Source of the DNA: Couchioplanes caeruleus
GTDB lineage: Bacteria > Actinomycetota > Actinomycetes > Mycobacteriales > Micromonosporaceae
Direction: 5' to 3'
Assembly (NCBI RefSeq): GCF_023499255.1
Contig: NZ_CP092183.1
Span: 4,832,501-4,896,500 of the forward strand
DNA length: 64,000 bases
The notes under the pieces were generated by a model. That model was given only the letters and a program-made list of their open reading frames with translations. It was not told the DNA's origin and searched no databases. Made by a program: the position numbers and the translations under genes. Below, piece after piece: positions 7,450 to 63,876 of the stretch. Position 1 is the stretch's first letter. The number at the start of each line of letters is the position of its first letter.

Positions 7450-7453
7450 GTCC

Positions 7454-14265: not shown

Positions 14266-14279
14266 GGGACTAAAGTCCC
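14266..14279. promoter_or_regulatory. DosR/DevR-type box upstream of narG
   Basis: GGGACTAAAGTCCC is a perfect match to the 14-bp core of the mycobacterial DosR motif TTSGGGACTWWAGTCCCSAA, with 6-bp arms and an AA centre. It lies in the 142-bp gap between narG and the SufR-like regulator. A looser inverted repeat built on GGTCCCGT and ACGGGC follows at about 14242-14258. Confidence 0.65.
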
Positions 14280-18521: not shown

Positions 18522-23039
<4,518 letters not shown>

Positions 23040-49564: not shown

Positions 49565-50701
49565 TCAGACGGTGGCGCCGACCCGGGCCCGGCCTTCCAC
49601 GCCCGGCGTGCCCCGGCCCGCGGCGTGCCGGGGCGACGGGACCGGCCAGGGGCGCAGCCGCGGTATGCGGCGGGCCGCCAGGTCCTCCACCCAGCCCACC
49701 GCGAGCACGGCGAACAGCAGCATGGACAGGGCGATGCCGGAGAAGGCCAGGTAGATGAGCAGGCCCTGGTGCACGTCCCAGAGCTTGAGCTGGTCGCCCA
49801 CGATGATGGCCGCGGTGATGACCACGTTGTGCCACAGGTAGATCGTGACGGCGCGGTTGTTGAGCGCGGCGACCAGGCGCTGCAGCAGCGGCAGCCGGCC
49901 GAGCCAGGCCATGTCCGGGTCGAGGCGCAGCAGGGCCAGCACGAAGCCCATCGAGTACAGGGCGTGGGCCAGCGGGAACGGCACGAGGTCGAGGCCGCCG
50001 GGGCCGGGGTGCTCGACGACCCAGCCGAGGCTGACCACGGTCAGCACGGCGGCGATGCCGGCGACCAGGGCGGGCCGCAGCCGGCGCAGGTCGCCGTCGC
50101 GGTGGGCGAAGCCGAGCAGCCAGCACGGCAGGAACGTCAGCACGTACCCGGCGGTCTGCACGGCGTTGTTGCCGGTGACGATCGGCTGGCTGTGCAGCGC
50201 GGCCAGCACGAGCAGCGGCACGGCGATCGTGAGCACCCGGCGGCGTCGGTACAGGCGCAGCAGCACCGGGGACAGCAGCACGAGCCACAGGTACGTGGCC
50301 AGGTACCAGAGCACGCCGGCCCCCTCGGCGCCGACGTCCCCGATCCCGTGGCTGGCCGGCGGGGTGGCCAGCGGCACGACCCAGAGCAGGAAGTCGGGCC
50401 ACGCCGGGTGGTGCGCCCAGCCGGCGGCGAGCATCAGCGGCACCAGCACGAGCCCCATGACCCACAGCGCGGGCAGCAACCGGCGGATGCGGCTGCGGAT
50501 GACCTTCGGGCCGGGCGAGCGGTCGAGGGACTTCGCCATCAGCGAGCCGCCGAGGGCGAACATCACGCCCATCGAGGGGAAGAGCAGGGCGAGTACGGCG
50601 TAATGGAACGCGTGGTACGCCACGACCCGAACGATAGCCAATGCACGGAGAGTATCGAAATAGCGATCTCGGGCGGGCGCCTGTGCGCTCGTCGCGTCCA
50701 T
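49565..50701 (-). CDS. Acyltransferase-3 family membrane protein
   Basis: A 378-residue integral membrane protein with about ten helices. The first block RYFDTLRALAIVRVVAYHAF holds the conserved Arg and His of acyltransferase-3 proteins; FALGGSLMAKSLDRS and YLWHNVVITAAIIVG match later family motifs. Such enzymes O-acylate sugars, lipids or antibiotics at the membrane. ATG 50701 (or GTG 50704) follows GCAGGAG. No linked substrate gene is visible. Confidence 0.8.
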   Translation of the reverse strand: MDATSAQAPARDRYFDTLRALAIVRVVAYHAFHYAVLALLFPSMGVMFALGGSLMAKSLDRSPGPKVIRSRIRRLLPALWVMGLVLVPLMLAAGWAHHPAWPDFLLWVVPLATPPASHGIGDVGAEGAGVLWYLATYLWLVLLSPVLLRLYRRRRVLTIAVPLLVLAALHSQPIVTGNNAVQTAGYVLTFLPCWLLGFAHRDGDLRRLRPALVAGIAAVLTVVSLGWVVEHPGPGGLDLVPFPLAHALYSMGFVLALLRLDPDMAWLGRLPLLQRLVAALNNRAVTIYLWHNVVITAAIIVGDQLKLWDVHQGLLIYLAFSGIALSMLLFAVLAVGWVEDLAARRIPRLRPWPVPSPRHAAGRGTPGVEGRARVGATV

Positions 50702-51003
50702 CACCAGCGAACTCCTGCAGTCTCGGGCCTATCGGGCATCACACACAGTAGCGGATCATGACCGGGAGCCGGTGAGCCGAACGGCTGGAATATTCTCCCC
50801 GCTCGGCGTCGCCGGGCGCTGTTGCGGGACCTTCGGCCCTGTCCCCCGGACCCCCGGCGGAGCGACATTGGGCGGGAGCCCACCGGCACTGGGATGGGAA
50901 CCTCGGGCGGCGGAGCGACACGCTGACTGGTCATCATCGGTCGCACGGAAATCCGCCGCCGGATCTGCCGGTGGGCCACTATCTGCCCCCGGCGCGACGG
51001 TGC
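50702..51003. other. Gene-free stretch
   Basis: About 300 bases before the stress cluster; promoter region of the acyltransferase gene, with no gene, repeat or strong hairpin recognised. Confidence 0.5.
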
Positions 51004-51324
51004 TCAGGCGAAGGGCGCCGGATGCTCGCGCTCGTCCTGCGCGGCGAGCCGTGCCATGGCCGCCCGGTAGTGCGTACGGCTGATCGCGCCGGAGAACAGC
51101 AGCTCCTGGAGCACCGCGTCCGGCGAGACCTCGGCCGCAGCAGCGGGGACGGGGCGACGGCTCGGCGGCAGGCCCATCACCGGCCCGAGGCAGGGGTCGA
51201 CGCGCGGCTCCTGCTCCCCGGGCCGGCCGGCGTCCCGCGGACCCAGTATCGGCGCGAACGCCAGGGCCACCAGGTGCAGCGCGATCAGCACCCACACCAC
51301 GACGACGAGCGTGTTCACGGCCAT
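51004..51324 (-). CDS. Small single-pass membrane protein with SHOCT-like tail
   Basis: A 106-residue protein. One membrane helix (NTLVVVVWVLIALHLVALAF) near the N-terminus, a proline-rich linker, and a C-terminal helical hairpin (DAVLQELLFSGAISRTHYRA) of SHOCT type. Its ATG overlaps the nitroreductase stop (TGATG), so it is the last gene of the usp-nitroreductase operon. SHOCT tails often mediate oligomerisation; the role here is unknown. Confidence 0.65.
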   Translation of the reverse strand: MAVNTLVVVVWVLIALHLVALAFAPILGPRDAGRPGEQEPRVDPCLGPVMGLPPSRRPVPAAAAEVSPDAVLQELLFSGAISRTHYRAAMARLAAQDEREHPAPFA

Positions 51325-52325
51325 CACCCCAGCAGGACGTCCTTCAGCGGCCGGCGCGGCGTGGCGGGCACCGGGCGGCCGTAGCCCACCCGCAGCACCA
51401 TCTGCGCCCAGGTTCCCGTACCGGTGTCGGTGAGCAGCGCGCGGACCGCCGGCAGCTCCACCGGCTGGCTGATCGGCGTGGTCGCCAGCCCCAGTCCGGT
51501 CGCCGTCAGCAGCACCCGCTGCAGCGCCTGCCCGGCCCTGAGCCACTCCGCCGGCCGGTCGCCGCGGGTCGCCAGCACCACGATCGCCGGGTGCGGCTCG
51601 AACTCGGCGGTCAGCGGGTCACGGTCGCGGCGCGGCAGTGCGAAGTCGCGGACGGGCAGGACCTCCAGGGCGTCCCACGGGCCGATCGCGGTCACCGGTA
51701 CGCCGTCGTGGCGGCCCCGGCCGGGCTTCGTCCAGCGGGCCAGCTCGGCGTCGTAGCCGTCGCGCTCGCGCAGGCGCCGGTCCGCGACCCGGGACATGCC
51801 CAGGATGGCGTCGCGGCCGACCGGTCTCGCCACGGCCAGCGCCGCACCCTCGAGGTGGGCGGCCGCGACCAGCCGTTCGACCGCGTCGGCCGGCAACGCG
51901 GTGTCCGCGAACGGGTAGCGGTTCGTGTGCCGCCGCCCGACCGCCAGGGTGAGCGAGGCGACGCCGGGCGTCGAGGCGGCCGGGCGTCCCACCGAGACCC
52001 GGGCCACGAGGTCCGGTCGCTGCGGGTCCGGGAACGGCGTCAGCACCGGCAGGCGCCCGGCGTCGCGGATCGCGAGGCGCAGCGTGAAGACCGCCGCCCC
52101 GACGCTGATCAGGAGCTCGCGTCCGGTGGGGTCGAGGACGGTCAGCTGCCGGCCGCGGTCGGCGTACACGTCGACGTGGTCGTCGGCGACCCGGAAGCGC
52201 CACGGCTGGCTGTTGTGCAGCGAGGGCGCGGCGGTGGCCGTGCGGACGCACTCGGACAGGACCGTCCGTGGCAGCGTCCCGGCCGCCACGAAACCCCGGT
52301 TGCCTGCAGTGACGGTGCCGGTCAT
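51324..52325 (-). CDS. Acg-type nitroreductase-fold protein
   Basis: A 333-residue protein with the Acg family pattern: CVRTATAAPSLHNSQPWRF at the start, then RRHTNRYPFADTALP and QALQRVLLTATGLGLATTPISQP. Acg (Rv2032) and Rv3131 in M. tuberculosis are DosR-regulated and probably sequester flavin rather than reduce substrates. GGAGAGG lies upstream of the ATG. It follows the usp gene by 46 bp on the same strand, forming usp-acg-SHOCT. Confidence 0.85.
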   Translation of the reverse strand: MTGTVTAGNRGFVAAGTLPRTVLSECVRTATAAPSLHNSQPWRFRVADDHVDVYADRGRQLTVLDPTGRELLISVGAAVFTLRLAIRDAGRLPVLTPFPDPQRPDLVARVSVGRPAASTPGVASLTLAVGRRHTNRYPFADTALPADAVERLVAAAHLEGAALAVARPVGRDAILGMSRVADRRLRERDGYDAELARWTKPGRGRHDGVPVTAIGPWDALEVLPVRDFALPRRDRDPLTAEFEPHPAIVVLATRGDRPAEWLRAGQALQRVLLTATGLGLATTPISQPVELPAVRALLTDTGTGTWAQMVLRVGYGRPVPATPRRPLKDVLLG

Positions 52326-52371
52326 CGCCGTACCTCTCCTTCTTCTCGGGAACATCGCCGACGGCCGGCGG

Positions 52372-53277
52372 TCAGCCGACCAGGAACACCGGGCACTGGG
52401 CCCGCTGCACCATGGCGCGGCTGACCGGACCCAGCAGCGCGCCCGCGAAACCGCCGGGGCCGCGCCGGCCGACCACGACGGCCGCCGCGCGGTCCGACAT
52501 GGCGAGCAGCGCGGCCACCGGGTCGCCGGGGACCAGCCGCTCGTGCACGACGACACCGCCGGGCCCGGGCAGCTGGATCCCCGGCACGGCACCCGTCCCG
52601 GCGTGCAGGACGATGAGCTCGCAACCGCGGACCCGCGCCTCCTCGCGGGCGAACCGGACGACCTCCGGCGGGGTCCTGGCGTCCACGCCGACGACCAGCG
52701 GCCGGGCGCCGAAACCCGGCCCCGGCGGCCAGTCCGGCACGCGGACGACCAGCGCCGGGCCGGTGTGGTGCGCGGCCACCCGCTCGGCCACGCTCAGCCC
52801 GAACGCGGTGCCCGTGGCGCGGTGCCGGTGACCGACGACGACCAGGTTCGCGTCGTGCGCGTCGGACAGCAGCAGCGGTGCGGCCGCGCCGATGGCGACG
52901 CGGCCGGTCACGGCCACGTCCGGGGTGTACGCGTGCACCCGGTCGGTCATGTGCTCCAGCAGGCGGGCGGCGGCTCCCCGGGAGGCCTCGCTGAGCTCGT
53001 ACGAGTGCTGCACGTGCATCATGCGCAGGCCCCAGCCGCGCAGCTCGGCCTCGACCGCGGCGTGGTCGACCGCCGTGTAGCTGGTGGGCGTCTCGTCGAC
53101 GCCGACGAGCACCACCCCGGCCGGCAGCGGCATTCGCGGCGGCGCGCCCGCGGCCGGTTCCCGGTACCCGGCCGCGCTCAGGTACCGGTTGATCACCTCG
53201 CCGTAGCGGGTCGGCGCCGCGGTGGCCGTGCCGTACCGGGCGTGGGTCTGCGTTCTTCTGTCCTCGAGGTGACGCAT
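52372..53277 (-). CDS. Tandem universal stress protein
   Basis: A 301-residue protein with two UspA domains after a 45-residue lead. Domain 1 (about 55-180) starts VVLVGVDETPTSYTAVDHAA and ends with the ATP loop VVGHRHRATGTAFGLSVAERV. Domain 2 (about 190-300) starts PLVVGVDARTPPEVVRFARE and ends VVGRRGPGGFAGALLGPVSR (G-2X-G-9X-G-S type). Adenine-nucleotide binding is likely. A DosR-like box lies 62-75 bp upstream. It resembles the tandem Usp proteins of the mycobacterial dormancy regulon. Confidence 0.88.
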   Translation of the reverse strand: MRHLEDRRTQTHARYGTATAAPTRYGEVINRYLSAAGYREPAAGAPPRMPLPAGVVLVGVDETPTSYTAVDHAAVEAELRGWGLRMMHVQHSYELSEASRGAAARLLEHMTDRVHAYTPDVAVTGRVAIGAAAPLLLSDAHDANLVVVGHRHRATGTAFGLSVAERVAAHHTGPALVVRVPDWPPGPGFGARPLVVGVDARTPPEVVRFAREEARVRGCELIVLHAGTGAVPGIQLPGPGGVVVHERLVPGDPVAALLAMSDRAAAVVVGRRGPGGFAGALLGPVSRAMVQRAQCPVFLVG

Positions 53278-53338
53278 GGCGACCTCCGGGGGTGCGTTCG
53301 CCTACCTCCACCACACCTCCTGCGCGGCCCGCGCTCCA

Positions 53339-53352
53339 GGGTCATTCGTCCC
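53339..53352. promoter_or_regulatory. Weaker DosR-like box upstream of usp/acg
   Basis: GGGTCATTCGTCCC differs from GGGAC-N4-GTCCC at one position. It overlaps the 3' end of the cNMP-binding gene and lies 62 bp before the usp start. One-mismatch matches also arise by chance in this composition. Confidence 0.4.
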
Positions 53353-53848
53353 CGGCGGCACGGCTGAGGGTCCCGGCGGCACCGTCGGGGACGGCACCGA
53401 GGGGGATGAGGCCGCGGCGCGCCTCGCTCAGCCGCCGGCCCAGGACCCGCAGGAAGCGCTCGGCCAGATCGGTGCCGGCGGCGCAGTCCTCGGCCATGAG
53501 GTTGCGCAGGCCACGTGCCTCCAGCTCGACGGCGTGGCACTGCGTGCTCGCGACCGCGCCGACCGACCACCGGCGCGGCGGCTGCAGCCAGGACAGGCCC
53601 AGCAGCTCGCCGCCGCCGACCTGGCCGATGACCACCTCGCCGCGCCCGGGTACGGAGAAGTCGAGGTCCACCTCCCCCGCGGTCAGCAGCCACAGATTCG
53701 CCGCCGGCGAGTCCTCACGGAACACCCGGTATCCCGGCGGCCACACCACCGGGCGGCCGTACCCGGCGACCTGGCGCAGCCGCGCGCCCGGCATGCCGGC
53801 CAGGAAGGGATGCAGCACGAGCAGGTCGAAGACGGTCAGCGAGGACAC
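53342..53848 (-). CDS. Cyclic-nucleotide-binding domain protein, no HTH
   Basis: A 168-residue protein. The cNMP-binding barrel is clear: LHPFLAGMPGARLRQVAGY, then LWLLTAGEVDLDFSVPGRGE and GGGELLGLSWLQPPRRW. No DNA-binding domain follows, so it is a sensor-only relative of Crp/Fnr. The start is a problem: the well-placed ATG 53880 (GGAGGTG upstream) is out of frame and stops after 14 codons. GTG 53848 is the only in-frame start and lacks a ribosome site. A 5' frameshift or leader-peptide coupling is possible. Confidence 0.7.
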   Translation of the reverse strand: MSSLTVFDLLVLHPFLAGMPGARLRQVAGYGRPVVWPPGYRVFREDSPAANLWLLTAGEVDLDFSVPGRGEVVIGQVGGGELLGLSWLQPPRRWSVGAVASTQCHAVELEARGLRNLMAEDCAAGTDLAERFLRVLGRRLSEARRGLIPLGAVPDGAAGTLSRAAGDE

Positions 53849-53880
53849 GGCTCGGCTGCCCAGGTCCGTACGTGGGTCAT
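53836..53880 (-). other. Short out-of-frame leader ORF before the cNMP-binding gene
   Basis: ATG 53880, with GGAGGTG 5-11 nt upstream, encodes MTHVRTWAAEPCPR and stops at 53836-53838, overlapping the GTG start of the next gene. Either it is a coupled leader peptide or the original N-terminus lost by frameshift. Confidence 0.45.
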
Positions 53881-53945
53881 GACGGCACCTCCGCGGGTCG
53901 TGGAGCGTCTCCTCCCATCCCAGCGCGCGCGGATGCCGCGTCCCA

Positions 53946-53959
53946 GGGCCATTGGTCCC
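53946..53959. promoter_or_regulatory. Weaker DosR-like box
   Basis: GGGCCATTGGTCCC differs from GGGAC-N4-GTCCC at one base and fits accepted DosR variants. It lies between the cNMP-binding gene and the aldolase remnant. Confidence 0.45.
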
Positions 53960-54067
53960 CGCCGCGCCGCCCGTTTCTCCCCGGCGCCGCCCGCCGTCGC
54001 GGGGCGTTGGACTCTGGGCCGGCCGGGCCGCCCGGGGCGAGGGTGGGCGCAAGGAAAGGAGGCCGCC

Positions 54068-54287
54068 ATGACAACGCGGCTGCGGCTGGCCGGATGCGGG
54101 CTCGGCGCGGGCAAGAAGGCCCGCCTGCACCGGATCCTCTACCGCCAGGAGGCGAGCACAGGAGTCGATGTCGGCCGGCGCCACCGGGCTGATCTTCGGC
54201 CGCAACGTCTGGCAGCGCGAGCACGACGAGTCCCTGCGGTTCGTCGACCGGCTGCGCGAGGTCCTCGCCAAATACCCGACGCCGTAG
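54068..54287 (+). pseudogene. Internally deleted class I fructose-bisphosphate aldolase (DhnA type)
   Basis: The 5' part starts ATG 54068 with an excellent GGAAAGGAGG and encodes TTRLRLAGCGLGAGKKARLH and RILYR, the normal N-terminus of DhnA-type aldolases. In another frame the 3' part reads ESMSAGATGLIFGRNVWQRE and FVDRLREVLAKYP, stop TAG 54285-54287, the normal C-terminus. The junction is near 54150. The whole barrel, including the Schiff-base Lys, is missing (about 220-280 residues), and the frame changes at the junction. The remnant cannot make an active aldolase. The family often accompanies Usp and GAPDH genes in actinobacterial stress clusters. Confidence 0.8.
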
Positions 54288-54297
54288 GAGGCCGGTC

Positions 54298-54813
54298 ATG
54301 AAAGCGCTGATCATCTTCGAGTCCATGTTCGGCAACACCCGGTCGATCGCCTGCGCGATCGCCGAGGGGCTGCAGGAGACGTACGAGGTCAACGTCGCCG
54401 ACGTGTCCGGCAGGCCCCGGGCGTACGGCATCGACCTGCTGGTCGTCGGCGGCCCCACGCACGCGTTCAGCATGAGCCGGGCGTCCACGCGCGAGGACGC
54501 GGCCCGCAAGGGCACGGTGCGCCAGGGTTCGGCCGGGACCGGCCTGCGCGACTACTTCGACTCCTCGCCGGTGCTGCACGGCATCCCGGCGGCGGCCTTC
54601 GACACGAAGATCAACAAGCCGCTGGTGCCGGGGTCGGCGGCCCGCCGGGCGCAGAAGGAGCTGCGCCGGCTCGGCTGCCGCATCGTGCTGCCGGCCGAGA
54701 ACTTCCTTGTCACCGACACGACCGGCCCGCTGGTGGAGGGCGAGCGCGAACGGGCCCGGCAGTGGGGTGCCGCGCTGGCGGCCGCCGCCGCGGAGCACCG
54801 CGACAAGGTCTGA
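54298..54813 (+). CDS. Flavodoxin-like protein
   Basis: A 171-residue flavodoxin fold. KALIIFESMFGNTRSIACAI holds the FMN phosphate loop, LLVVGGPTHAF and FDTKIN the isoalloxazine-contact loops. It is close in style to flavodoxins of stress clusters, which carry electrons or protect thiols. GGAGG lies 7 nt before the ATG and it follows the aldolase remnant by 10 nt, so it was probably its operon partner and is still expressed from that promoter. Confidence 0.88.
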   Translation: MKALIIFESMFGNTRSIACAIAEGLQETYEVNVADVSGRPRAYGIDLLVVGGPTHAFSMSRASTREDAARKGTVRQGSAGTGLRDYFDSSPVLHGIPAAAFDTKINKPLVPGSAARRAQKELRRLGCRIVLPAENFLVTDTTGPLVEGERERARQWGAALAAAAAEHRDKV

Positions 54814-54817
54814 CGAA

Positions 54818-54855
54818 CGACAAGGCGGCGGCGCACCCGCGCCGCCGCCTTGTCG
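54818..54855. terminator. Perfect 17-bp hairpin between convergent genes
   Basis: 54818-54834 pairs with 54839-54855 (CGACAAGGCGG outer part), a 4-nt ACCC loop. It separates flavodoxin and usp, which converge. No U-tract. Confidence 0.75.
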
Positions 54856-54867
54856 GGTGACCGGTGC

Positions 54868-55803
54868 TCAGTGCCGCCGCGCCGCCGCTGGCCGCCGGGT
54901 GCCGCGGGCCGCACGGGCCGGGCCGGGTACGGTCCAGCCGGGCGGGACGAGCAGGACCGGGCACGCCGTCTGGCGCAGCAGCGTCCCGCCGAGGGAGCCG
55001 TACAGCAGCTCCACGAACCGCCCGCTGCGACCCATGCCGGCGACCAGCAGCCGCCCGCGCCGCGACGCCCGTTCCAGGGTGTAGCCGATGTCGACGTCGT
55101 GCACGAGCAGCCGTTCCACCTCGACACCGGGGAACCGCGCGTCCCAGCCCTCCAGCGCCTCGGCCAGCCGGGCGTCGGCCGCGCGCCGCGCCACGGCGAA
55201 CCCGCCGGCCGGCGATGCCCCGGCCGAGGCCGCGCCGGTGTACGTCCACACGTGCAACGCCACCAGCCGGCTGCCCGTCGCGGCGGCCTCGTCGAACGCG
55301 TACCTCGTGGTGGCGGCGGCACCGTCGCGCGTGGAGACGGCCAGCACCACCGGGCCGCGCCCGGGAACGACGCCCCGGTGCACCAGCAGCGGGCAGGACC
55401 CGTGGTGGGCCAGGTACGCGGTGGTGGAGCCCCAGCTCGGCCGGGTCAGGATCACGTCACGATGCCCGACCACCAGGAGCCGGGCGCGCTCGGACCGCTC
55501 GACCAGCACCTGGGCGGCGCTCCCGCCGGCCAGCTCGGTGCTCACGTCGAGGTCCGGTATCCGCAGCCGGGCCCGGCGCGCGGCGAGGTCCAGCAGGTGC
55601 GCCCCGTCGTCCTGCGTGGGGAACGCCCCGCGGATCCGGAACGCGCCGGAGTAGTGGCCCGGCCACACGTGCACGATGAGCAGTGGCGCGCGCAGGCGGG
55701 CGGCCTGGTCGGCGGCCAGATCGACGGTCTCCGGATGGGAGCGCGACCCGTCGATGCCGACCACCACGGGCAGGTCTCGCTTCGACGACACGACGCTGTG
55801 CAT
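54868..55803 (-). CDS. Tandem universal stress protein
   Basis: A 311-residue two-domain UspA protein. Domain 1: LPVVVGIDGSRSHPETVDLA to LLVVGHRDVILTRPSWGSTT. Domain 2: PVVLAVSTRDGAAATTRYAF to VAGMGRSGRFVELLYGSLGG. The first domain lacks the usual G-2X-G-9X-G(S/T) spacing, the second keeps most of it. A degenerate DosR-like sequence GGGCCTTTCGGCAG lies at 55862-55875 upstream. Divergent from the broken wax-ester-synthase gene. Confidence 0.85.
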   Translation of the reverse strand: MHSVVSSKRDLPVVVGIDGSRSHPETVDLAADQAARLRAPLLIVHVWPGHYSGAFRIRGAFPTQDDGAHLLDLAARRARLRIPDLDVSTELAGGSAAQVLVERSERARLLVVGHRDVILTRPSWGSTTAYLAHHGSCPLLVHRGVVPGRGPVVLAVSTRDGAAATTRYAFDEAAATGSRLVALHVWTYTGAASAGASPAGGFAVARRAADARLAEALEGWDARFPGVEVERLLVHDVDIGYTLERASRRGRLLVAGMGRSGRFVELLYGSLGGTLLRQTACPVLLVPPGWTVPGPARAARGTRRPAAARRH

Positions 55804-55966
55804 ATCCGGACCGTAGGCGCGTACCGCGACACGGCGGCACGGCCGGTGGACCGTGGGATACGGGCCTTTCGGCAGGGTCACGCCGGCTTCGTGCCCTGCT
55901 GCCCGGCACGCCCCGCGGGGTCCGGTGGCTCTGCCGGCGGCGTGCCGGTCCCACGAGACTGGCGCC

Positions 55967-56646
55967 ATGGCCGCGTACGCCGAGCCCGTGACCGACGCCG
56001 ACCTGGCCTTCCTGGCCATGGACACCGGCCGGGTGCCCGTGCAGTTCGGCGCCGTGCTGGCGCTCGACCGCCACCTCGACCCCGCGCGGGCCGCCCGGTT
56101 GCTCGCCGAGCGGATCCCGCGCACCCGGCGGCTGCGGCAGCGCATCGCCACGCGAGGTCCGCTGCGGCGCCCGGTGCGGGAGAACGACGAGTCCTTCACC
56201 GTCGCCCGTCACCTGGAGGTCCGGCACTGCCCGCCGCCCGGTGACGAAGCGGCGCTGACCGCGGTGGCCATGGCGCTCCTGCTGCGCCGGCTGCCGTGCG
56301 ACCGTCCGCTGTGGCGGGTACGGCTGGTACATGCGCCGGCAACGACGGCTCCACACGCTGGTCAGCTTCGTCCGCGGGCCCGACCGGCCGCTGCGGTTCG
56401 GCGGCGCCACGGTCCGCCGGCTCGTCCCGCTGGTTCCTGGGCGGCGAGACGAACCTGACGGTGACGTTCCAGGCCATCACGTACGCCGGCACGCTCGCCG
56501 TCTCCGCGGTGGCGGATCCGCGGGCCTGCCCGGACCTGCCGGTGCTGGGCGCGTACCTCGCCGAGGAGCTGGCGGCGCTGGGCGCGGGCCCGGCCCCCGG
56601 TTTCGGGACCTTCTGCCCTGCCCGGCCCATCGGCAGCGGCCGATGA
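55967..56646 (+). pseudogene. Deleted and frameshifted wax-ester synthase/DGAT (tgs1 family)
   Basis: Three fragments lie in three frames. The N-terminal part (55967 to about 56335) reads DLAFLAMDTGRVPVQFGAVL to LPCDRPLWRVRLVHA, stopping just before the catalytic HHxxxDG motif. The second (about 56345-56435) reads LHTLVSFVRGPDRPLRFGG. The third (to 56646) reads ETNLTVTFQAITYAGTLAVS and ADPRACPDLPVLGAYLAEEL, the normal C-terminus. About 250 central residues are gone and a further frameshift separates the last two parts. No enzyme activity is possible. In M. tuberculosis tgs1 belongs to the DosR regulon. Confidence 0.8.
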
Positions 56647-56671
56647 TCGGGGGAAGCCGAGGGGAGGAACC

Positions 56672-57556
56672 ATGACGACCAGGGCGATCATCGTGGCGAC
56701 GGACGGGACGACGTACGGCGAAGCCGCGGTGCAGTGGGCCGCACGCGAGGCCGGACGCCGCGGATCGCTGCTGCGGATCACGTACGTGTACGACTGGGAG
56801 TGGCGCGAAGCGCGCTTCGACTACAGCACCGAGTACGCGGACGCCGCACGGCACGCGGCGGAGGCGATCACCGCGACGGCTTCCGGCCAGGCGCATGCGG
56901 TGGCTCCCTCCGTACGGATCGAGACGGACACGCTCATCGGGCACGCGTCCGCCCGGCTGCCGGCCGCCGCCGAGGACGCCGAGCTCATGGTGCTGGGCAG
57001 CCGGGGCCGTGGTGGCTTCGCCGGCCTGCTCCTCGGCTCGGTGAGCCGGCGGGTGGCCACGCACGCGCTCTGCCCCGTCGTGGTCGTACGGGGCCGGGGC
57101 GACGTCACCGACGGGCCCGTCGCGGTCGGCGTGGACGACTCCCCCGCCGCCGAGCACGTCCTGGGCGTGGCCTTCGAGGCGGCCGCGAGCCGGGGCAGCG
57201 CGCTCGCCGTCGTCCGGTCGTACCTGCCTCCCGTGCCGCTGTGGCTGGCCGGCACCGTGCCGGCGACCGAGGTCTCCACGCCCGAGGCCGACGCCGCCGA
57301 GCGGGCCCGCCTGGCCGAGCTCGTCGCGCCGTGGCAGGCGAAGTATCCGGACGTCGCGGTCGAGACGATGCTGTCGCACGACAGCGCCGCCGCGGTGCTC
57401 GTGGGTGTCTCGCACGGTGCCCAGCTCGTCGTCGCCGGCACGCACGGCCACGGCGTCGTCGCCGGTACCATCCTCGGCTCGACGACCATGCAGCTGCTGC
57501 ACCACGCCGACTGCCCGGTCCTCATCGCCCGCAGCCCGGGCAAGCGGACGCCATGA
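56672..57556 (+). CDS. Tandem universal stress protein
   Basis: A 294-residue protein with two UspA domains. Domain 1: RAIIVATDGTTYGEAAVQWA to VLGSRGRGGFAGLLLGSVSR. Domain 2: PVAVGVDDSPAAEHVLGVAF to VAGTHGHGVVAGTILGSTTM. Both keep the ATP-binding G-2X-G-9X-G-S loop. GAGGGGAGG lies upstream of the ATG. The stop overlaps the next ATG by four bases, so it is coupled to the acyl-CoA synthetase fusion gene, suggesting regulation of that enzyme by the stress protein. Confidence 0.9.
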   Translation: MTTRAIIVATDGTTYGEAAVQWAAREAGRRGSLLRITYVYDWEWREARFDYSTEYADAARHAAEAITATASGQAHAVAPSVRIETDTLIGHASARLPAAAEDAELMVLGSRGRGGFAGLLLGSVSRRVATHALCPVVVVRGRGDVTDGPVAVGVDDSPAAEHVLGVAFEAAASRGSALAVVRSYLPPVPLWLAGTVPATEVSTPEADAAERARLAELVAPWQAKYPDVAVETMLSHDSAAAVLVGVSHGAQLVVAGTHGHGVVAGTILGSTTMQLLHHADCPVLIARSPGKRTP

Positions 57557-60213
57557 CCATCGGCGGTCCCGCCGTCCCTGAAGCCGACGCGCTCACTTCG
57601 GACGGCGGGATCGTGACCATCCGGCCGGTCGCCGACGGTGACCGGCCGGATCTGTCCAGGCTGTTCGGCGAGGCGTCGCCGGAGAACCTGCGGCTGCGCT
57701 TCTTCTGCCTGCCGAGTTCGGCGACGATCAACGCCGAGATCGACCGGCTCTGCCGCCCGGACGACACCCGCCACCTCGCGGTCGTGGCCACCGAGGCGGG
57801 ACGGATCGTCGGCGTCGCCTCCTGCGAGCGCCCCGGCGCCGGCTCGCCGCGCGCCGAGTTCGCCGTGTTCGTCGCCGACGCCCAGCACGGCCGGGGCATC
57901 GGGACGCTGCTGCTGGAGCACCTGGCCGCCCGGCCCCGGCCGCTCGGCGTCACCGAGCTCACCGGCGAGGTGCTCCCCGGCAACATCGGCATGCTGCGGG
58001 TCGCGCGGGACCTGAGCACGCACACCTGGACGCGCTTCGCCGGCGGCATCGTCGGCGTCGGCGTGGACACCCGCGGGGACGACGCCGCCGAGCCGGTCAT
58101 CGACGCCCGGGACCGGACGGCCGAGCGGGCCTCGCTGCGCGCGCTGCTCAGCCCCCGCTCCGTCGCGGTCGTCGGCGCGGGGCACACCCGCGGCGGCGTC
58201 GGCCACGAGACACTGCGCGCGTTGCGGGAGTACGGCTTCCCCGGGCACGTGTACGCGGTCAACCGGACCGGCGCGGCGGTGGACGGCGTGCCGGGCAGCC
58301 GGTCGCTGCGGGACCTGCCCCGGCCCGTCGACCTGGTGGTGGTCGCCGTACCGGCCGGGGACGTGCCGGCCGTGGTGCGCGACGCCGCGGCCGCCGGGGC
58401 GCGCGGCGTGGTCGTGCTCAGCGCCGGCTTCGCCGAGCAGGGGCCGGCCGGGCGCCGGCGGCAGCAGGAGATCCTCGGCATCACCCGCGCGCACGGCATG
58501 CGGCTGGTCGGCCCGAACTGCCTCGGCATCCTCAACACCGACCCGGCCGTACGCCTCAACGCCTGCTTCGCGCCCGCTCCCCCGCCGGCCGGTGGGCTGG
58601 CCGTCGCCGCGCAGTCCGGCGCCGTGGGAGTCGCGGTGCTGGACAACGCGATCCGTACGGGCTGCGGCGTCTCCTCCTTCGTGTCGCTGGGCACCAAGGC
58701 GGACGTCAGCGGCAACGACCTGATCGCGTACTGGTACGACGACCCGGCGACCCGGGCGGTGGTGCTGCACCTGGAGTCGTTCGGGAACCCGCGCAGGTTC
58801 GCCCGTACGGTGCGCGCCCTGTCCCGGCGCAAGCCCGTCCTGGCCGTCAGGAGCAGCCGATGCGACCGGGCGGCGACGGTCGACGCCCTCTTCGAGCAGG
58901 CCGGGGTGATCCACACCCGCACGCTCGGCGAGCTGCTCGACGCCGCGCGCATGCTCAGCGGCCAGCCGCTGCCCCGCGGGCACCGCCTCGCGATCCTCGG
59001 CAACGCGGGCGGGCTCACCGTGCTGGCCGCCGACGCCGCCGAGGGCGGGGGCCTGCAGGTACGCCCGCTGAGCCACCGGCTGCGCCGCGAGATCGCCTCG
59101 GTGTCGGCGGTGTGCGCGGGCACCGGCAACCCGGTGGATCTGGGCGCGGACGTGCCGCCGGGCACGTTCGCCGAGGCGGCGGCCGTGCTGGCCGACAGCG
59201 GCGAGGTGGACGCGCTGCTGCTGGTGATCGTGGGTACGCGCACGAACGCACCGGCCGCCATCCTGTCCGCCCTGGGCGCGGTGGCCGACGCCCGTCCCGA
59301 GCTGCCCGTCGCCGCGGTGCTGGTGGGCCGGGGCACCGCGGGGCCGGCCTTCGGCGAACGCTGCGCGCCCGTCTTCGACCTGCCGGAGCGGGCGGTGACC
59401 GCGCTCGCCCACGCCGCCTCGTACGCCGCCTGGCGACGCCGGCCGCTGGGTACCCGTCCCGTGCTTCCCGGGCTGGACATCGAGGGCGCCCGCAGCCTGA
59501 TCCGGCACCTGCCCGCGGACGGCGGCGGCCGGCTGACGTACCAGCAAGCCTCCGCGCTGCTGCAGCGGTACGGGATCCCGGTGCTGGCCGCCGAGCTGGT
59601 GACGAGCGGGCCGGACGCGGTGGCCGCCGCCGGGCGCCTCGGCTTCCCGGTGGTGCTCAAGTCCGCCGATCCCGCCCTGGTCCGCAGGAGCGACGCCGGC
59701 GCCGTACGGCTGAATCTCACCGGGGCCGCGGCGGTGCGCGCCGCTTTCGACGAGGTCACGGCCGCCGGGGCGCCGGGCACCGGCGCCATGGTGCAACGCC
59801 AGGTCCGGGCCCCGGTGGAGCTGGTCGCGGGCATCGCGCACGATCCGCTGTTCGGGTCGGTGGTGCTGCTGGGCGCCGGCGGGGCGCGGACCGGCCTGCC
59901 CGGCGACCGGTCGCTGCGGCTGGTCCCGATGACCGATCTGGACGCCGCCCGGATGTGGCGGGACCTGCGCGCCGCTCCCCTGCTGACCGGTTGCCGCGGG
60001 GCGCCGCCGGTGGACACCGCCGCGGTCGAGGATCTGGTGCTGCGGCTGGGCCGGCTCGCGGAGAACCACCCCGAGGTGGCCGAGCTGGACCTCGACCCGG
60101 TCTTCGCGGGCCCGGACGGGGTGCTGGCGGTGGACGTGAGGCTGCGGCTGGCCCCGGTCGGCGCCGAGCCCGATGCGACGCTGCGCAGCCTGCGCGCCCG
60201 CGACGGCAGGTGA
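57553..60213 (+). CDS. GNAT-fused ADP-forming acyl-CoA synthetase
   Basis: An 886-residue multi-domain protein. Residues 20-165 are a GNAT domain (QHGRGIGTLLLEHLA is the acetyl-CoA loop). Residues 197-325 are a CoA-binding domain (SPRSVAVVGAGHTRGGVGHE), 330-480 a succinyl-CoA-ligase-like domain with LVGPNCLGILNT and AQSGAVGVAVLD, and 640-860 an ATP-grasp domain (LTYQQASALLQRYGIPVLAA). Proteins of this Pat-like layout acetylate acetyl-CoA synthetase or other lysines; here the fused synthetase domains may be regulatory or enzymatic. It overlaps usp (ATGA). Confidence 0.88.
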   Translation: MTIGGPAVPEADALTSDGGIVTIRPVADGDRPDLSRLFGEASPENLRLRFFCLPSSATINAEIDRLCRPDDTRHLAVVATEAGRIVGVASCERPGAGSPRAEFAVFVADAQHGRGIGTLLLEHLAARPRPLGVTELTGEVLPGNIGMLRVARDLSTHTWTRFAGGIVGVGVDTRGDDAAEPVIDARDRTAERASLRALLSPRSVAVVGAGHTRGGVGHETLRALREYGFPGHVYAVNRTGAAVDGVPGSRSLRDLPRPVDLVVVAVPAGDVPAVVRDAAAAGARGVVVLSAGFAEQGPAGRRRQQEILGITRAHGMRLVGPNCLGILNTDPAVRLNACFAPAPPPAGGLAVAAQSGAVGVAVLDNAIRTGCGVSSFVSLGTKADVSGNDLIAYWYDDPATRAVVLHLESFGNPRRFARTVRALSRRKPVLAVRSSRCDRAATVDALFEQAGVIHTRTLGELLDAARMLSGQPLPRGHRLAILGNAGGLTVLAADAAEGGGLQVRPLSHRLRREIASVSAVCAGTGNPVDLGADVPPGTFAEAAAVLADSGEVDALLLVIVGTRTNAPAAILSALGAVADARPELPVAAVLVGRGTAGPAFGERCAPVFDLPERAVTALAHAASYAAWRRRPLGTRPVLPGLDIEGARSLIRHLPADGGGRLTYQQASALLQRYGIPVLAAELVTSGPDAVAAAGRLGFPVVLKSADPALVRRSDAGAVRLNLTGAAAVRAAFDEVTAAGAPGTGAMVQRQVRAPVELVAGIAHDPLFGSVVLLGAGGARTGLPGDRSLRLVPMTDLDAARMWRDLRAAPLLTGCRGAPPVDTAAVEDLVLRLGRLAENHPEVAELDLDPVFAGPDGVLAVDVRLRLAPVGAEPDATLRSLRARDGR

Positions 60214-60217
60214 CGGA

Positions 60218-60247
60218 GGGCTGCCCCGGCCGGGCCCGGGGCAGCCC
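60218..60247. terminator. Perfect 12-bp hairpin between convergent genes
   Basis: GGGCTGCCCCGG (60218-60229) and CCGGGGCAGCCC (60236-60247), 6-nt loop. Between the synthetase fusion and the CBS-BON gene. Confidence 0.75.
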
Positions 60248-60260
60248 TTCTCCGGAACCC

Positions 60261-60875
60261 TCAGGACGGGGTGACCACCTTGACGTTCGCGGCGGCCACG
60301 CCGGGTACGGTCCGTGTGAGCACCTCGACGACCGCGCGCTCGGTGTCGTTGGCGAACGCGCCCTCCACCGTGGCCACTCCGCCGTCCACGGTCACGGCCC
60401 ACCGGTGCTCGCCGTCGGCGTACTCGTCGAGGCGGTGCTGCACCTCCTTCACCAGCGCCTCGTCGCTGCGCACCATGGCGCGCAGGATGTCGCGGCGGCT
60501 GATGACGCCGACCACCTCCCGGCCGTCGAGGACCGGCATGCTGCGGACGTCGTGCTGCAGCATCGTGTCCGCGACGTCCGCGACGTCGGCGTCCGGCGTC
60601 GTGGTGAGCGGGAACGGGGACATGACCTCGACGACCATGCCGGGGCGGCGGGACGGGTCGGTGTCCGGGTGCCGGCGCAGGTGCGCGGTCGGGTCGGACG
60701 GGACCCGGTGCCACAGCAGGTCGCTCTCGCTCACCATGCCGACGAGCAGGCCGTCGGCGTCGACCACCGGCAGGGCCGTCACGGCCTTGCCCGCCATCAG
60801 CTCCGCGGCGCTCTCCACCGGTGCGTTCTGCCAGATCACGTGGACCGGGCTGCTCATGATGTCCTTGGCACGCAT
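60261..60875 (-). CDS. CBS-pair and BON domain protein
   Basis: A 204-residue protein. Two CBS domains (RAKDIMSSPVHVIWQNAPVE; VVEVMSPFPLTTTPDADVAD to MPVLDGREVVGVISRRDIL) and a C-terminal BON domain (HRWAVTVDGGVATVEGAFAN). CBS pairs bind adenine nucleotides; BON domains may bind membranes or ligands. Similar proteins (Hrp1-like CBS) belong to the DosR regulon. It starts 4 nt after the gap stop, so they share a transcript. Confidence 0.88.
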   Translation of the reverse strand: MRAKDIMSSPVHVIWQNAPVESAAELMAGKAVTALPVVDADGLLVGMVSESDLLWHRVPSDPTAHLRRHPDTDPSRRPGMVVEVMSPFPLTTTPDADVADVADTMLQHDVRSMPVLDGREVVGVISRRDILRAMVRSDEALVKEVQHRLDEYADGEHRWAVTVDGGVATVEGAFANDTERAVVEVLTRTVPGVAAANVKVVTPS

Positions 60876-60879
60876 GACG

Positions 60880-61899
60880 TCACCTCCGGGTGGCCATCTG
60901 CTGGGTGAGGTCGACGAGGCGGCTGGTGTAGCCCCACTCGTTGTCGTACCAGCCGAACACCTTGGCGAGGCGTCCGCCCGCCTGGGTCAGCTTGGCGTCG
61001 AAGACGCAGGAGGCCTTGTCGCCCACGATGTCGCTGGAGACGATCGGCGCCTCGGTGTAGCGGATGATCCCGTCCATCGGCCCGCCCGGGGCGGCGGCCT
61101 CCGCGACGGCCGCGTTGATCTGCCCGGCGCTGACCTCGGTGCCGAGCTGCAGGGTGAGGTCGCTGACGGAGCCGTCGACGACCGGTACCCGCAGGGCGAC
61201 GCCGTCGAGCCGGCCCGCGAGCTCGGGCAGCACCAGGCCGACCGCCTTGGCCGCGCCGGTGCTGGTCGGGATGATGTTCACCCCGGCGGCCCGGGCCCGG
61301 CGAGGGTCCTTGTGCGGGGCGTCGAGCACGTTCTGGTCGTTCGTGTACGCGTGCACCGTGGTGAGGTGGCCCGCCTCGACGGTGAACGCCTCGTGCAGCA
61401 CCTTGAGCAGCGGCGCCACACAGTTCGTGGTGCAGGACGCGGCCGAGACGACCAGGTGCAGGTCGGGGTCGTACGCGTCCGCGTTGACACCCGGCACCAG
61501 GGTCGCGTCGACGTTCCTGCCCGGTGCGGAGATCAGCACCCGGCCGGCGCCGGCCTTGAGGTGCAGCGCCGCGTCCTCACGCCGGCGCAGCTTCCCGGTC
61601 GACTCGATCACCAGGTCCACGCCGAGGTCGCCCCAGGGCAGCACGTCCGGGGTCCGCTCGGAGAACGTGGGGATCCGGTGCCAGCCGACGGTGATCGCCT
61701 CGTCGTCGCAGCTCACCTGCGCGTCGAGCCGGCCGAACGTGGAGTCGTACTCGAGCAGGTGGGCCAGCATGGCGGCGTCGTACAGGTCGTTGATGGCGAC
61801 GACCTGGAGGCCCGCGTTGGCGAGCTTCTTGTCCGTCAGGGCGCGCAGATAGTTACGGCCGATGCGGCCGAAGCCGTTGATCGCGATGCGGTAGGTCAT
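60880..61899 (-). CDS. gap: Glyceraldehyde-3-phosphate dehydrogenase, type I
   Basis: A 339-residue enzyme. The nucleotide loop INGFGRIGRNYLRAL is at residues 7-21 and the acidic NDL after strand 2 suggests NAD preference. The catalytic SCTTNC has Cys156; the HAYTNDQNVLDAPHKDPRRARA substrate loop and WYDNEWGYTSR end follow. All catalytic residues are kept. Placed in the stress cluster with an aldolase remnant and CBS-BON gene, so it is likely a second, condition-specific GAPDH rather than the central glycolytic one. GGAGG-type site upstream. Confidence 0.92.
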   Translation of the reverse strand: MTYRIAINGFGRIGRNYLRALTDKKLANAGLQVVAINDLYDAAMLAHLLEYDSTFGRLDAQVSCDDEAITVGWHRIPTFSERTPDVLPWGDLGVDLVIESTGKLRRREDAALHLKAGAGRVLISAPGRNVDATLVPGVNADAYDPDLHLVVSAASCTTNCVAPLLKVLHEAFTVEAGHLTTVHAYTNDQNVLDAPHKDPRRARAAGVNIIPTSTGAAKAVGLVLPELAGRLDGVALRVPVVDGSVSDLTLQLGTEVSAGQINAAVAEAAAPGGPMDGIIRYTEAPIVSSDIVGDKASCVFDAKLTQAGGRLAKVFGWYDNEWGYTSRLVDLTQQMATRR

Positions 61900-62045
61900 G
61901 GTCAGCCTCCAGCCTTGATGACGCCCCCAGCCTCGTCCTGCGGGCCGCGGGGCGGACAGGGCCGAACGACCTGCGGGCCCGGGCGCCCGGGCCCGCGTCC
62001 CCGGCCGGCCCGGGCCACGAGGCGCAGATCCACGCGCGACCGTCC

Positions 62046-63092
62046 TCAGGGCACGATCACCGCGCGTCCCTGCAGCTCACCGGCCTGCATCTCGTCGTAC
62101 GCGGTGACCGCCCCGGACAGCTCGAACCGGCAGATCTGCGGGGTCAGCATCCCGCGGGCCGCCAGGTCGAGCACCTCGGCGAGCTCCGGCCGGGTCCCCC
62201 AGTACGTGGTCTGGATGCTGACCTCGTACGGCACCGAGAAGAACGACAGCGGCAGGGTGCCACCGGCGATCCCGACGAGCGTGAGGTCGCCCAGGCTGCG
62301 CACGGTGCCCGCGGCCAGGGCGAGCGTGTCGTCGCCGCCGACGAAGTCGAGCACCACGTCGGCGCCGTGACCGCCGGTCGCGTCGCGGATCGCCTCGGCG
62401 GGACTGTCCTCGGCGGACAGCACGAGGTCCGCGCCGTACCGCCGGGCCAGGTCCAGCGCGTCCCTGCGAAGGTCGACGGCGATCACCCGCGCGGCCGTCG
62501 TCGCCTTGAGGATCTGCACCGCCAGGTGCCCGAGGCCGCCGACGCCGATGACCAGCGCGGTGCTGCGCGGGGTCAGCTTCGGCCACGAACGGCGGATCGC
62601 GTGGTACGGCGTGAGCCCGGCGTCGGTCAGCGGCGCGGCGTGCAGCGGGTCCAGCCCGGGCGGCAACGGGACGAGGTGGCGGGCGTCGGGCACCAGCAGG
62701 TATTCCGCCATGCCGCCGTCCAGGCCCAGCCCGCCACCGCCGGCGGGTACGGGCGCCTCCGCCGGGTGATCGCAGTACGTCTCCGCGCCGAGCCGGCAGC
62801 GGTCACAGGAGCCGCAGCCCCACGCGCCGTACACCGCCACCGCCGTACCCTCCGCGAGGCCGGTCACCCCTTCGCCGACGCGATGCACCCAGCCGGCGTT
62901 CTCGTGCCCCAGGGTGAACGGTGGCCCCCACGGCAGCTGCCCCGCCGTGAAGTCGTGCATGAGGTGCAGGTCGGAGTGGCACGCCCCGGCGCCACCCACC
63001 TTGATCACGACCTGGCCGGGTCCCGGCACGGGCTGCGGCACCTCCACCAGCTCGGCGGGCTTCTTCCAGTCCAGCAGTCTGAGAGCACGCAT
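62046..63092 (-). CDS. Zinc-dependent alcohol dehydrogenase
   Basis: A 348-residue medium-chain dehydrogenase. Catalytic zinc: CHSDLHLMHD and GHENAGWVHR. Structural zinc: CGSCDRCRLGAETYC with four Cys. Nucleotide loop: VIGVGGLGHLAVQIL, with IAVDLR marking NAD preference. It would interconvert alcohols and aldehydes, perhaps for redox balance at low oxygen. ATG 63092 has GGAGGAG 6 nt upstream; a longer reading to 63125 is not supported. Two DosR-like boxes lie upstream, shared with the divergent doxX gene. Confidence 0.9.
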   Translation of the reverse strand: MRALRLLDWKKPAELVEVPQPVPGPGQVVIKVGGAGACHSDLHLMHDFTAGQLPWGPPFTLGHENAGWVHRVGEGVTGLAEGTAVAVYGAWGCGSCDRCRLGAETYCDHPAEAPVPAGGGGLGLDGGMAEYLLVPDARHLVPLPPGLDPLHAAPLTDAGLTPYHAIRRSWPKLTPRSTALVIGVGGLGHLAVQILKATTAARVIAVDLRRDALDLARRYGADLVLSAEDSPAEAIRDATGGHGADVVLDFVGGDDTLALAAGTVRSLGDLTLVGIAGGTLPLSFFSVPYEVSIQTTYWGTRPELAEVLDLAARGMLTPQICRFELSGAVTAYDEMQAGELQGRAVIVP

Positions 63093-63153
63093 CGGTGTCT
63101 CCTCCCACTCGTCTCCTCCGCCCATCGTCGGACCGCCGCTGCGGGGCCCACAC

Positions 63154-63167
63154 GGGGCGAACGTCCC
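63154..63167. promoter_or_regulatory. DosR-like box 1 between adh and doxX
   Basis: GGGGCGAACGTCCC, one mismatch to GGGAC-N4-GTCCC, 39 bp from the stronger box. Confidence 0.45.
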
Positions 63168-63192
63168 GTGCCGGACCGGGCGGCGATCGATC

Positions 63193-63206
63193 GGGACCTA
63201 AGTCCC
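63193..63206. promoter_or_regulatory. DosR-like box 2 between adh and doxX
   Basis: GGGACCTAAGTCCC has perfect 5-bp arms (GGGAC and GTCCC). It sits about midway between the divergent adh and doxX starts (about 100 and 83 bp). Confidence 0.6.
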
Positions 63207-63288
63207 GCCCGGGTCGGGCGGTCAGGCCCGGGTGCCCGCGCCGGAAGCGGTGCATGGTCGGAACAGGACATCGAATGAGGAGGACACC

Positions 63289-63876
63289 ATGACGACCATC
63301 GGCCGCGGAGCTGCGGCTCACCACCTCGAGAACGTCGAGGCACCCGGTCACATGCTCACCCTGACGGCCGCCCGGGCGCTGGCCGTGTTCCGCATCTCCC
63401 TCGGGTTCGTCTTCCTGTGGGCGTTCCTCGACAAGACCTTCGGTTTGAACTACGCCACCCCGTCCGCCCGCGCCTGGATCCACGGCGGGTCGCCGACCAA
63501 GGGCTTCCTGTCCCACGTCGACCTCGGCCCGTTCCAGGGCACGTTCCACTCGATGGCCGGCAACGTCGTGGTCGACTGGCTGTTCATGCTCGGCCTGCTC
63601 GGCATCGGCGTCGCCCTCATCCTCGGCATCGGGATGCGCATCGCCGCCGCAGCTGCCACGCTGATGATGGCGTTCATGTGGTTCGCCGAGTTCCCGCTCG
63701 CGCAGCACACCAGCGCCGGCGAGCCCAGCGGCTCGAACAACCCGATCACCGACTACCACTTCATGTACGCCGTCGGCGCGATCGTCGCCGCGCTGACGTA
63801 CGCCGGACACACCTGGGGCCTGGGCCGCTGGTGGGCACAGCTGCCCTTCGTGCAGCGCAACCGTTGGCTGATCTGA
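63289..63876 (+). CDS. DoxX family membrane protein
   Basis: A 195-residue protein with about four membrane helices (ALAVFRISLGFVFLWAFLDK, WLFMLGLLGIGVALILGIGM, ATLMMAFMWFAEFP, HFMYAVGAIVAALTYAG) and the NNPITDYHFMYA segment of DoxX proteins. DoxX members are linked to quinone and thiol redox stress. GAGGAGG lies 6 nt before the ATG. Divergent from adh with shared DosR-like boxes. Function is not established. Confidence 0.85.
   Translation: MTTIGRGAAAHHLENVEAPGHMLTLTAARALAVFRISLGFVFLWAFLDKTFGLNYATPSARAWIHGGSPTKGFLSHVDLGPFQGTFHSMAGNVVVDWLFMLGLLGIGVALILGIGMRIAAAAATLMMAFMWFAEFPLAQHTSAGEPSGSNNPITDYHFMYAVGAIVAALTYAGHTWGLGRWWAQLPFVQRNRWLI

Follow-up and report, generated by a model that had tools for sequence, protein, structure and literature searches.

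A probable DosR/OsdR-type low-oxygen island in Couchioplanes caeruleus with a pyruvate formate-lyase as predicted target and a kinase-less heme-GAF protein

The DosR (DevR) regulon of Mycobacterium tuberculosis includes genes for the nitroreductase Acg, universal stress proteins (Usp), CBS proteins, Tgs1 and a RafH-type hibernation factor. A DosR-type cluster outside the mycobacteria is also already known, the OsdR/OsdK regulon of Streptomyces coelicolor, in which, according to the published account, OsdR binds a 16-nt palindrome with the consensus AGGGCCGATCGGCCCT, resembling the DevR site; such binding was seen in electrophoretic mobility shift assays, and the narG2 site contains GGGACCTTCGGCCC (PMC5069765). 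Here we analysed a 64,000-nt stretch of the Couchioplanes caeruleus chromosome (hereafter the window; G000:C1:4832501-4896500 on an 8.42-Mb chromosome in one contig), in which a sequence-only reading had proposed that positions 51004-63876 form a DosR-like, hypoxia/NO-responsive survival cluster. All positions below are window-based unless given with a contig; negative values lie left of the window and values above 64000 lie right of it. Our results indicate that this interval is very probably a small slice of a patchy DosR/OsdR-type island of ~130 kb (about -22 to +113 kb), and that the island is, with high likelihood as judged from sequence, a low-oxygen survival program under a DosT-like kinase and a DosR homologue. 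The low-oxygen survival reading is supported, and induction by hypoxia or NO and the physiological role are predicted.

The window contains neither dosR nor dosS, as had been noted from its sequence: none of the 34 HisKA_3 matches in the genome lies inside it, and comparison of the genome's own DosR and DosS with the six-frame translated window yielded nothing for DosS; for DosR, the sole hit was a hybrid-kinase receiver domain (18129-18467, E 4.6e-4). A genome-wide search, proposed with the original reading, located a NarL-type regulator beside a DosT-like GAF kinase; the pair lies ~433 kb to the left of the window, so the reading is not contradicted by a lack of DosR/DosS homologues. The best PDB match of this DosR homologue (G000:C1:4398803-4399444) is full-length DevR (3c3w, E 2.3e-74), followed by VraR (1.1e-42), its orthology to DevR being judged by similarity, not by a tree. 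One of the 34 HisKA_3 matches, at 4396.5 kb, shares a 554-aa frame with two GAF_2 matches; the 551-aa kinase itself (DosS, G000:C1:4396111-4397766) has a GAF-GAF-HisKA_3-HATPase architecture. Its GAF-A is best matched by the DosT heme GAF (2vzw, E 2.4e-50); over the ATPase domain, the kinase matches DosT (3zxq) and DevS (3zxo). In the alignment, His140 and Tyr162 of the kinase coincide with the heme ligand His149 and the distal Tyr171 of DosS, and a DosT-like Gly occupies the Glu87/Gly85 position, the roles of these residues being those given in PMC4082495. These kept ligand residues suggest that the DosT-like kinase binds heme. Two nitroreductase-family genes, dosS and a usp gene lie on one strand of the locus and dosR on the opposite strand, with an exact copy of the DosR/OsdR-type box described below between dosR and usp-dosS and another before a nitroreductase gene. 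DosR is 92-99% identical across seven same-genus relatives, and in seven of eight same-genus genomes (this one counted) the gap before dosR contains a box; none was found upstream of dosR in G111. Within the window, a GAF-GAF protein of similar size (25581-27143) was considered as DosS and rejected, its C-terminal part appearing chemoreceptor-signalling-like by eye and DosS having no match in the window. The window also encodes a 1486-aa hybrid kinase (18522-22982) with eight HAMP, GAF, HisKA, HATPase and two receiver matches.

The earlier reading had proposed a scan for boxes of this kind, and one with the exact pattern GGGNC-N4-GNCCC, whose spacing of 4 was taken from the literature, showed that they are present and that intergenic DNA in this region is enriched in them. 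In 220 kb surrounding the window there are 36 exact boxes, 24 of them intergenic, while intergenic DNA as defined by in-house gene calling makes up 22.1 of the 220 kb (10%). Spacers of 0-3 and 5-11 gave 2-7 intergenic matches each, versus 24 at spacer 4. Twenty other 20-kb stretches of the genome served as a control; their 60.6 kb of intergenic DNA contained 6 boxes (0.10 per kb), compared with 22 boxes in 13.0 kb between -25 and +115 kb (odds ratio 17, P 3e-12). By block, there are 7 boxes from -25 to 0 kb (2.8 per kb), 6 from 1 to 64 kb (1.0 per kb) and 9 from 64 to 115 kb (2.0 per kb), and the density at the flanks is 0.17 per kb at -78 to -25 kb and 0.30 per kb at 115-142 kb. Boxes with an A/T core are similarly concentrated, with 15 of the 40 in the genome falling within 129 kb (4816657-4945746; P 1.7e-17), 5 in the window (P 1.3e-5) and 3 in the interval 51004-63876 (P 3.4e-5), these P values being optimistic because the island limits and the A/T-core form were both picked after inspection. 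Two further A/T-core boxes lie at the regulator locus, and GGGACCTTCGGCCC, the sequence contained in the S. coelicolor narG2 site, is also present here. The DosR homologue would be expected to bind these boxes. Two more small groups of A/T-core boxes were observed elsewhere in the genome (G000:C1:3613345-3630288 and 6001265-6007997).

One predicted target lies outside the window, where the interval is followed on the right by pntA1-pntA2-pntB, a 197-aa open reading frame and then pyruvate formate-lyase (PFL) with its activase. The two enzymes keep the Cys-Cys, RVSGYAV and CxxxCxxC motifs, and a glycyl-radical domain was found in 23 of 81 genomes of the family. Upstream of 14 of the 22 other Micromonosporaceae PFL genes, at ~61-151 bp, there is an exact box, and seven other spacers gave 0-2 of 22. 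Eight of the 22 lie within 10 kb of DosS (0.06 expected), and 20 have a box, a DosS gene within 10 kb, or both. In a same-genus genome (G090), a dosR-usp-dosS-acg locus with boxes stands one gene away from PFL and its activase (DosR 98%, DosS 77% and the part of PFL in the stretch 86% identical to those described here), and in another (G029) two genes separate the dosR-dosS locus from PFL and its activase. PFL as a predicted DosR target seems to be new so far as our literature search went: no description of DosR control of PFL in Micromonosporaceae was found in titles and abstract openings of the open-licence literature, and a search for PFL and DosR in actinobacteria yielded only work on horizontal transfer in the tubercle bacillus.

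These data are consistent with the following mechanism. When O2 leaves the heme-GAF of the DosT-like kinase, the enzyme would be turned on and would phosphorylate the DosR homologue, which could then bind the GGGNC-N4-GNCCC boxes in the island promoters. Phosphorylated DosR would thereby switch on nitrate respiration through narGHJI, fermentation and redox balance through PFL and its activase, GAPDH, alcohol dehydrogenase (ADH), transhydrogenase and PPDK, energy saving through the hibernation factor, and stress holding through Usp, Acg and CBS proteins. The core target types of such a regulon, namely Usp, Acg, CBS, Nar and the hibernation factor, are all present in the sequence.

Several observations weigh against such a program. 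The regulator genes lie outside the island in this genome, and between 14.3 and 50.7 kb there are carbohydrate genes, among others, and a single exact intergenic box (33456), without an A/T core; the island is therefore not continuous. The boxes at 56605 and 61959 carry one mismatch each, the Usp gene at 54868 and the flavodoxin-like gene have weak sites only, and in G024 and G020 the PFL gene lacks both an exact box and a DosS gene within 10 kb. The selection after inspection noted above counts in the same direction. Nor is the pattern rare in the genome as a whole: there are 424 occurrences of the loose form, against 965 of its reversed control, and 40 of the A/T-core form, against 29 of its reversed control. 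It is thus the location of the sites that carries the case. The 424 occurrences of the loose form and the 965 of its control also favour an explanation by chance or composition, in which Usp, Acg and CBS genes cluster as they do in many actinomycetes and GC-rich palindromes arise between genes anyway. However, among the spacers compared only a length of 4 gives an excess of intergenic boxes (24 versus 2-7), the control stretches carry 0.10 boxes per kb versus 1.0-2.8 in the island, and the footprint is repeated ahead of PFL in 14 of the 22 other genomes, making chance very unlikely.

Somewhat less improbable, though still unlikely, is a general stress cluster read by another regulator, be it of Crp type, a sigma factor or another NarL-type pair, with DosR not in charge. 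The 34 HisKA_3 matches point to many NarL-type pairs in this genome and two cNMP-binding proteins are encoded inside the island, but the same box is found in the dosR promoter and before the regulator-locus nitroreductase gene, its presence upstream of dosR is shared by all but one (G111) of the eight same-genus genomes, and its spacing and sequence agree with OsdR sites. The island could also be a decaying relic of a dormancy system that is being lost, as the truncated WS/DGAT gene and the ~433 kb between the regulators and the window might suggest. We consider this the least probable of the three, given that the PFL and activase motifs are kept, that narGHJI, Usp, Acg and hibernation-factor genes are uninterrupted frames with Pfam matches and boxes upstream of their operons, and that DosR is so strongly conserved in the seven relatives.

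Besides the predicted DosR targets, the island encodes P0001, a 434-aa protein 13.6 kb left of the window (G000:C1:4817643-4818944, -14857 to -13556), whose gene comes after that of the hibernation factor with its box. The first GAF domain of P0001 matches the DosS/DosT heme GAF (E 1.4e-47), both the proximal His and the distal Tyr are present in a matching fold, and heme binding is predicted. A structure model built from 11 sequences has a mean pLDDT of 83.9 and a pTM of 0.66, with low confidence at residues 102-107 and 128-130; in a fold search with it, tandem-GAF phosphodiesterases ranked at the top and the GAF-A structures of DosS/DosT next, at 54-58% identity. In the DHp helix, the kinase motif DLHD is replaced by DLRD, which places an Arg at the phosphoacceptor His position, and the frame stops 54 residues past the H-box position without a CA (HATPase) domain.

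P0001 belongs to a distinct group of short proteins. The family set comprised 41 proteins (16 short and 25 long); L088, a contig-end fragment that keeps the His, and L044, a seeming duplicate of L046 by equal length and alignment figures, were left out of the counts and the tree. All 16 short proteins have Arg or Gln at the phosphoacceptor position and no ATPase part, and 15 keep the heme His, whereas all 25 long proteins have the phosphoacceptor His and the ATPase part. A single branch (100/99) divides the two groups in the unrooted tree. In a search of 5.8 billion proteins, 2732 of 8000 scored proteins passed E<=1e-60; the best 120 together with the query gave 121 sequences, 119 of them short, and among these 119 the heme His is kept in 118 and the Tyr and Gly in all. 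The phosphoacceptor position is Arg in 104, Gln in 10, His in 4 and Gly in 1, i.e., 115 of the 119 lack the His. Short forms were read in 14 of 121 family genomes, counting only those in which the sequence was read and excluding G109. The core group of 11 genomes with a short form also has, in each case, a full-length DosS-like frame of 554-791 aa. Across 296 phylum-wide genomes (two of this family), with five candidates scored per genome, no other short full-coverage frame was found at E<=1e-70; G258 gave a partial match, a 440-aa frame with an internal stop. A divergent short GAF subgroup (L086, L087 and L089; ~39% identity) with Arg at the His position was observed in genus g17.

We also considered two other natures for P0001. 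A pseudogene is opposed by the 118 similar short proteins, by the one-branch split (100/99) and by whole-gene dN/dS ratios of 0.27-0.34. For the DHp part by itself, dN/dS is 0.17 between this genome and Nucisporomicrobium and 0.59-0.67 against Pseudosporangium, which indicates that the DHp is only weakly constrained in the Pseudosporangium pairs. The idea of a conserved DosR phosphatase is weakened as well. The Gln of the HDxxxQ motif serves in phosphatase activity. Asp or Glu follows the His position in only 17 of the 119 short proteins and the Gln is kept in 70, compared with both Asp and Gln in all 25 long proteins; because these motif residues have been lost, a plain phosphatase role is less plausible.

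Most likely, P0001 is a modulator of DosS or DosR. We tentatively propose, as a possibility that we rate below even odds, that a kinase-less dual-GAF heme sensor evolved in Micromonosporaceae from a DosT-type kinase and, by pairing with the DHp of DosS or binding to DosR, acts as an O2-gated brake or rheostat for a regulon that in this lineage took over PFL fermentation in presumed aerobes. In 6 of the 11 core genomes, dosR or dosS is found at a distance of 2-22 kb from the short gene. Against a DosS partner stand the position of the short gene ~420 kb away in this genome, ~155 kb away in G115 and on other contigs in G111, G042 and G028, as well as the His kept in 4 of 119 short proteins. Also unfavourable are the lack of an intergenic box around the short gene in G042, G053 and the short G043 contig, of any box in the 7-8-kb stretches of L086, L087 and L089, and of a full DosS at E<=1e-60 in G087 of the divergent subgroup. 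A DosT-like heme-GAF family without the ATPase domain, and mostly without the phosphoacceptor His, seems to be new so far as our literature search went, in which titles and abstract openings of open-licence papers held no description of a kinase-less DosS paralogue.

The gene content of the interval itself, examined with Pfam along with part of the window and island genes, largely bears out the sequence-only reading. On the left, an acyltransferase_3 gene (49565-50704, minus strand) has the box GGGACCTTCGGCCC (50826-50839) 121 bp upstream, and its membership is uncertain. The Acg-type nitroreductase (51324-52325, minus strand) has a Pfam match, and Acg (2ymv, E 1.5e-27) is its sole PDB match at E<=0.001. 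It forms a run with a two-domain Usp gene (52372-53277, minus strand); a box 61 bp upstream of the run (GGGTCATTCGTCCC, 53339-53352) overlaps the end of the gene for a cyclic-nucleotide-binding (cNMP) protein (53342-53848, minus strand) and was hence excluded from the intergenic count. The run is terminated by a 107-aa frame without a family (51004-51327, minus strand). The class I aldolase remnant that had been proposed was not recovered: PF00274 has no match across the genome at E<=1, the 107-aa frame has no PDB match at E<=10, and two longer frames near 51 kb have no Pfam family, the search having covered PF00274 among the aldolase families. The cNMP gene has a box 97 bp upstream (GGGCCATTGGTCCC, 53946-53959). 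Two further two-domain Usp genes lie at 54868-55881 (minus strand) and 56672-57556 (plus strand); there are thus three Usp genes as stated, not strictly in tandem but interleaved with others on both strands. The last of them precedes a gene for an 886-aa fusion of GNAT to an ADP-forming acyl-CoA synthetase (GNAT/ACS; 57553-60213, plus strand; GNAT, CoA-binding, Succ-CoA-ligase and ATP-grasp matches), with a one-mismatch box (GGGACCTTCTGCCC, 56605-56618) 53 bp upstream of the pair. A relative of GNAT/ACS adjoins DosS in G043, and in G017 relatives of GNAT/ACS and of PPDK lie a few genes from DosS.

On the right, GAPDH (60880-61899, minus strand) and a CBS-pair protein (60261-60875, minus strand) share a one-mismatch box (GGGCCGAACGACCT, 61959-61972) 59 bp upstream of GAPDH. 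The CBS pair was correctly read, whereas its weak BON tail is under the curated cut-off, and Hrp1 (Rv2626c) is not its closest solved relative, as 1xkf (E 1.2e-6) is outranked by 25 of the 49 listed sequences. A flavodoxin-like gene (54298-54813, plus strand) likewise has a match, but only under the curated cut-offs. Two boxes, GGGGCGAACGTCCC and GGGACCTAAGTCCC (63154-63206; starts at 63154 and 63193), occupy the gap between the divergent genes for a zinc ADH (62046-63125, minus strand) and a DoxX-family protein (63289-63876, plus strand). The cNMP, GNAT/ACS, GAPDH and ADH assignments have Pfam matches, and DoxX passes barely (24.2 bits, cut-off 23.6). The tgs1-type WS/DGAT remnant was also correctly recognized (55994-56329, plus strand; E 4.6e-10): it covers only positions 3-121 of the 263 of the catalytic domain, which is thus incomplete, and is the single above-cut-off WS/DGAT match in the genome. 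A possible C-terminal remnant follows (56464-56580, plus strand; E 0.0066, under the cut-off).

Beyond the interval, the island consists of two gene blocks flanking the carbohydrate-gene stretch, with other genes also inside. The left block (-25 to 14 kb) includes a P-type ATPase-hemerythrin gene, a ferric-reductase-like gene, a nitroreductase gene, the RafH-type hibernation factor (sole PDB match RafH, 8whx, E 2.6e-27; box 66 bp upstream), P0001, three Usp genes and TauE, as well as a second short S30AE-like protein, an MFS transporter and narGHJI. The respiratory nitrate reductase operon (6226-14260, minus strand) reads narG (10526-14260), narH (8811-10526), narJ (8191-8814), narI (7454-8194) and the transporter (6226-7449), all on that strand and assigned by Pfam; the narK-like name of the latter comes from MFS and position. 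Its box (GGGACTAAAGTCCC, 14266-14279) lies 5 bp before the called narG start, which is perhaps called too far upstream. The metal-type P-type ATPase with C-terminal hemerythrin has 762 aa (G000:C1:4807822-4810110, -24678 to -22390; L015:14325-16610), and a box at -22309 falls in the gap between it and the divergent ferric-reductase-like gene. The second S30AE-like protein (L014:9561-9899; 113 aa, E 5e-4, under the cut-off) lies 79 bp downstream of a box. The right block (50 to 114 kb) comprises the interval, pntA1-pntA2-pntB, PFL and its activase, five more Usp genes, a cation ATPase, a second cNMP protein, two CBS-BON proteins, glycogen phosphorylase, three nitroreductase-family genes (one 0.9 bits under the cut-off) and PPDK. 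The named relatives of one island protein come from Nucisporomicrobium flavum (93% identical) and Pseudosporangium ferrugineum (82%), which places the organism on the Actinoplanes side of the Micromonosporaceae.

The predicted regulon would extend the DosR-type hypoxia program of mycobacteria and Streptomyces to soil bacteria of the Actinoplanes type, nitrate respiration and an oxygen-sensitive enzyme of fermentation being among its predicted targets. The kinase-less heme sensor offers a testable new control point, in easily handled soil bacteria, for a system studied in dormancy. P0001 shares with the DosT/DosS kinases a GAF-A with heme His, distal Tyr and DosT-type Gly, a GAF-B and a DHp hairpin, and differs from them in lacking the phosphoacceptor His and the CA domain. 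RetS has been modelled as forming a heterodimer through its DHp. Both RetS and P0001 are sensors that could act through pairing with another kinase; unlike RetS, P0001 has no CA domain and is of heme-GAF type, its pairing being hypothetical. RetS, as described in PMC12148439, acts on the kinase GacS. With the OsdR/OsdK regulon (SCO0167-SCO0219), as described in PMC5069765, the island has in common a DosR/DosT-type pair, a 14-bp core palindrome with a 4-bp spacer, a Usp cluster, a nitroreductase, PPDK, Nar2, ADH and a Crp-like protein; in contrast, the regulators here lie ~433 kb from the window, and the island contains PFL and its activase, transhydrogenase, glycogen phosphorylase and a kinase-less GAF paralogue. 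The main text of that paper contains neither the word 'formate' nor 'pseudokinase', and our predictions bear on the 'anaerobic paradox' of streptomycetes raised there (PMC5069765). The island shares with the M. tuberculosis DosR regulon Acg, Usp, CBS, a tgs1-type gene (a remnant here), a RafH-type hibernation factor and a dual-GAF heme kinase, and differs from it in its fermentation genes, its broken tgs1-type gene and its layout. It seems to belong to a known kind of regulon, extended here by new predicted targets and by a new family of accessory proteins.

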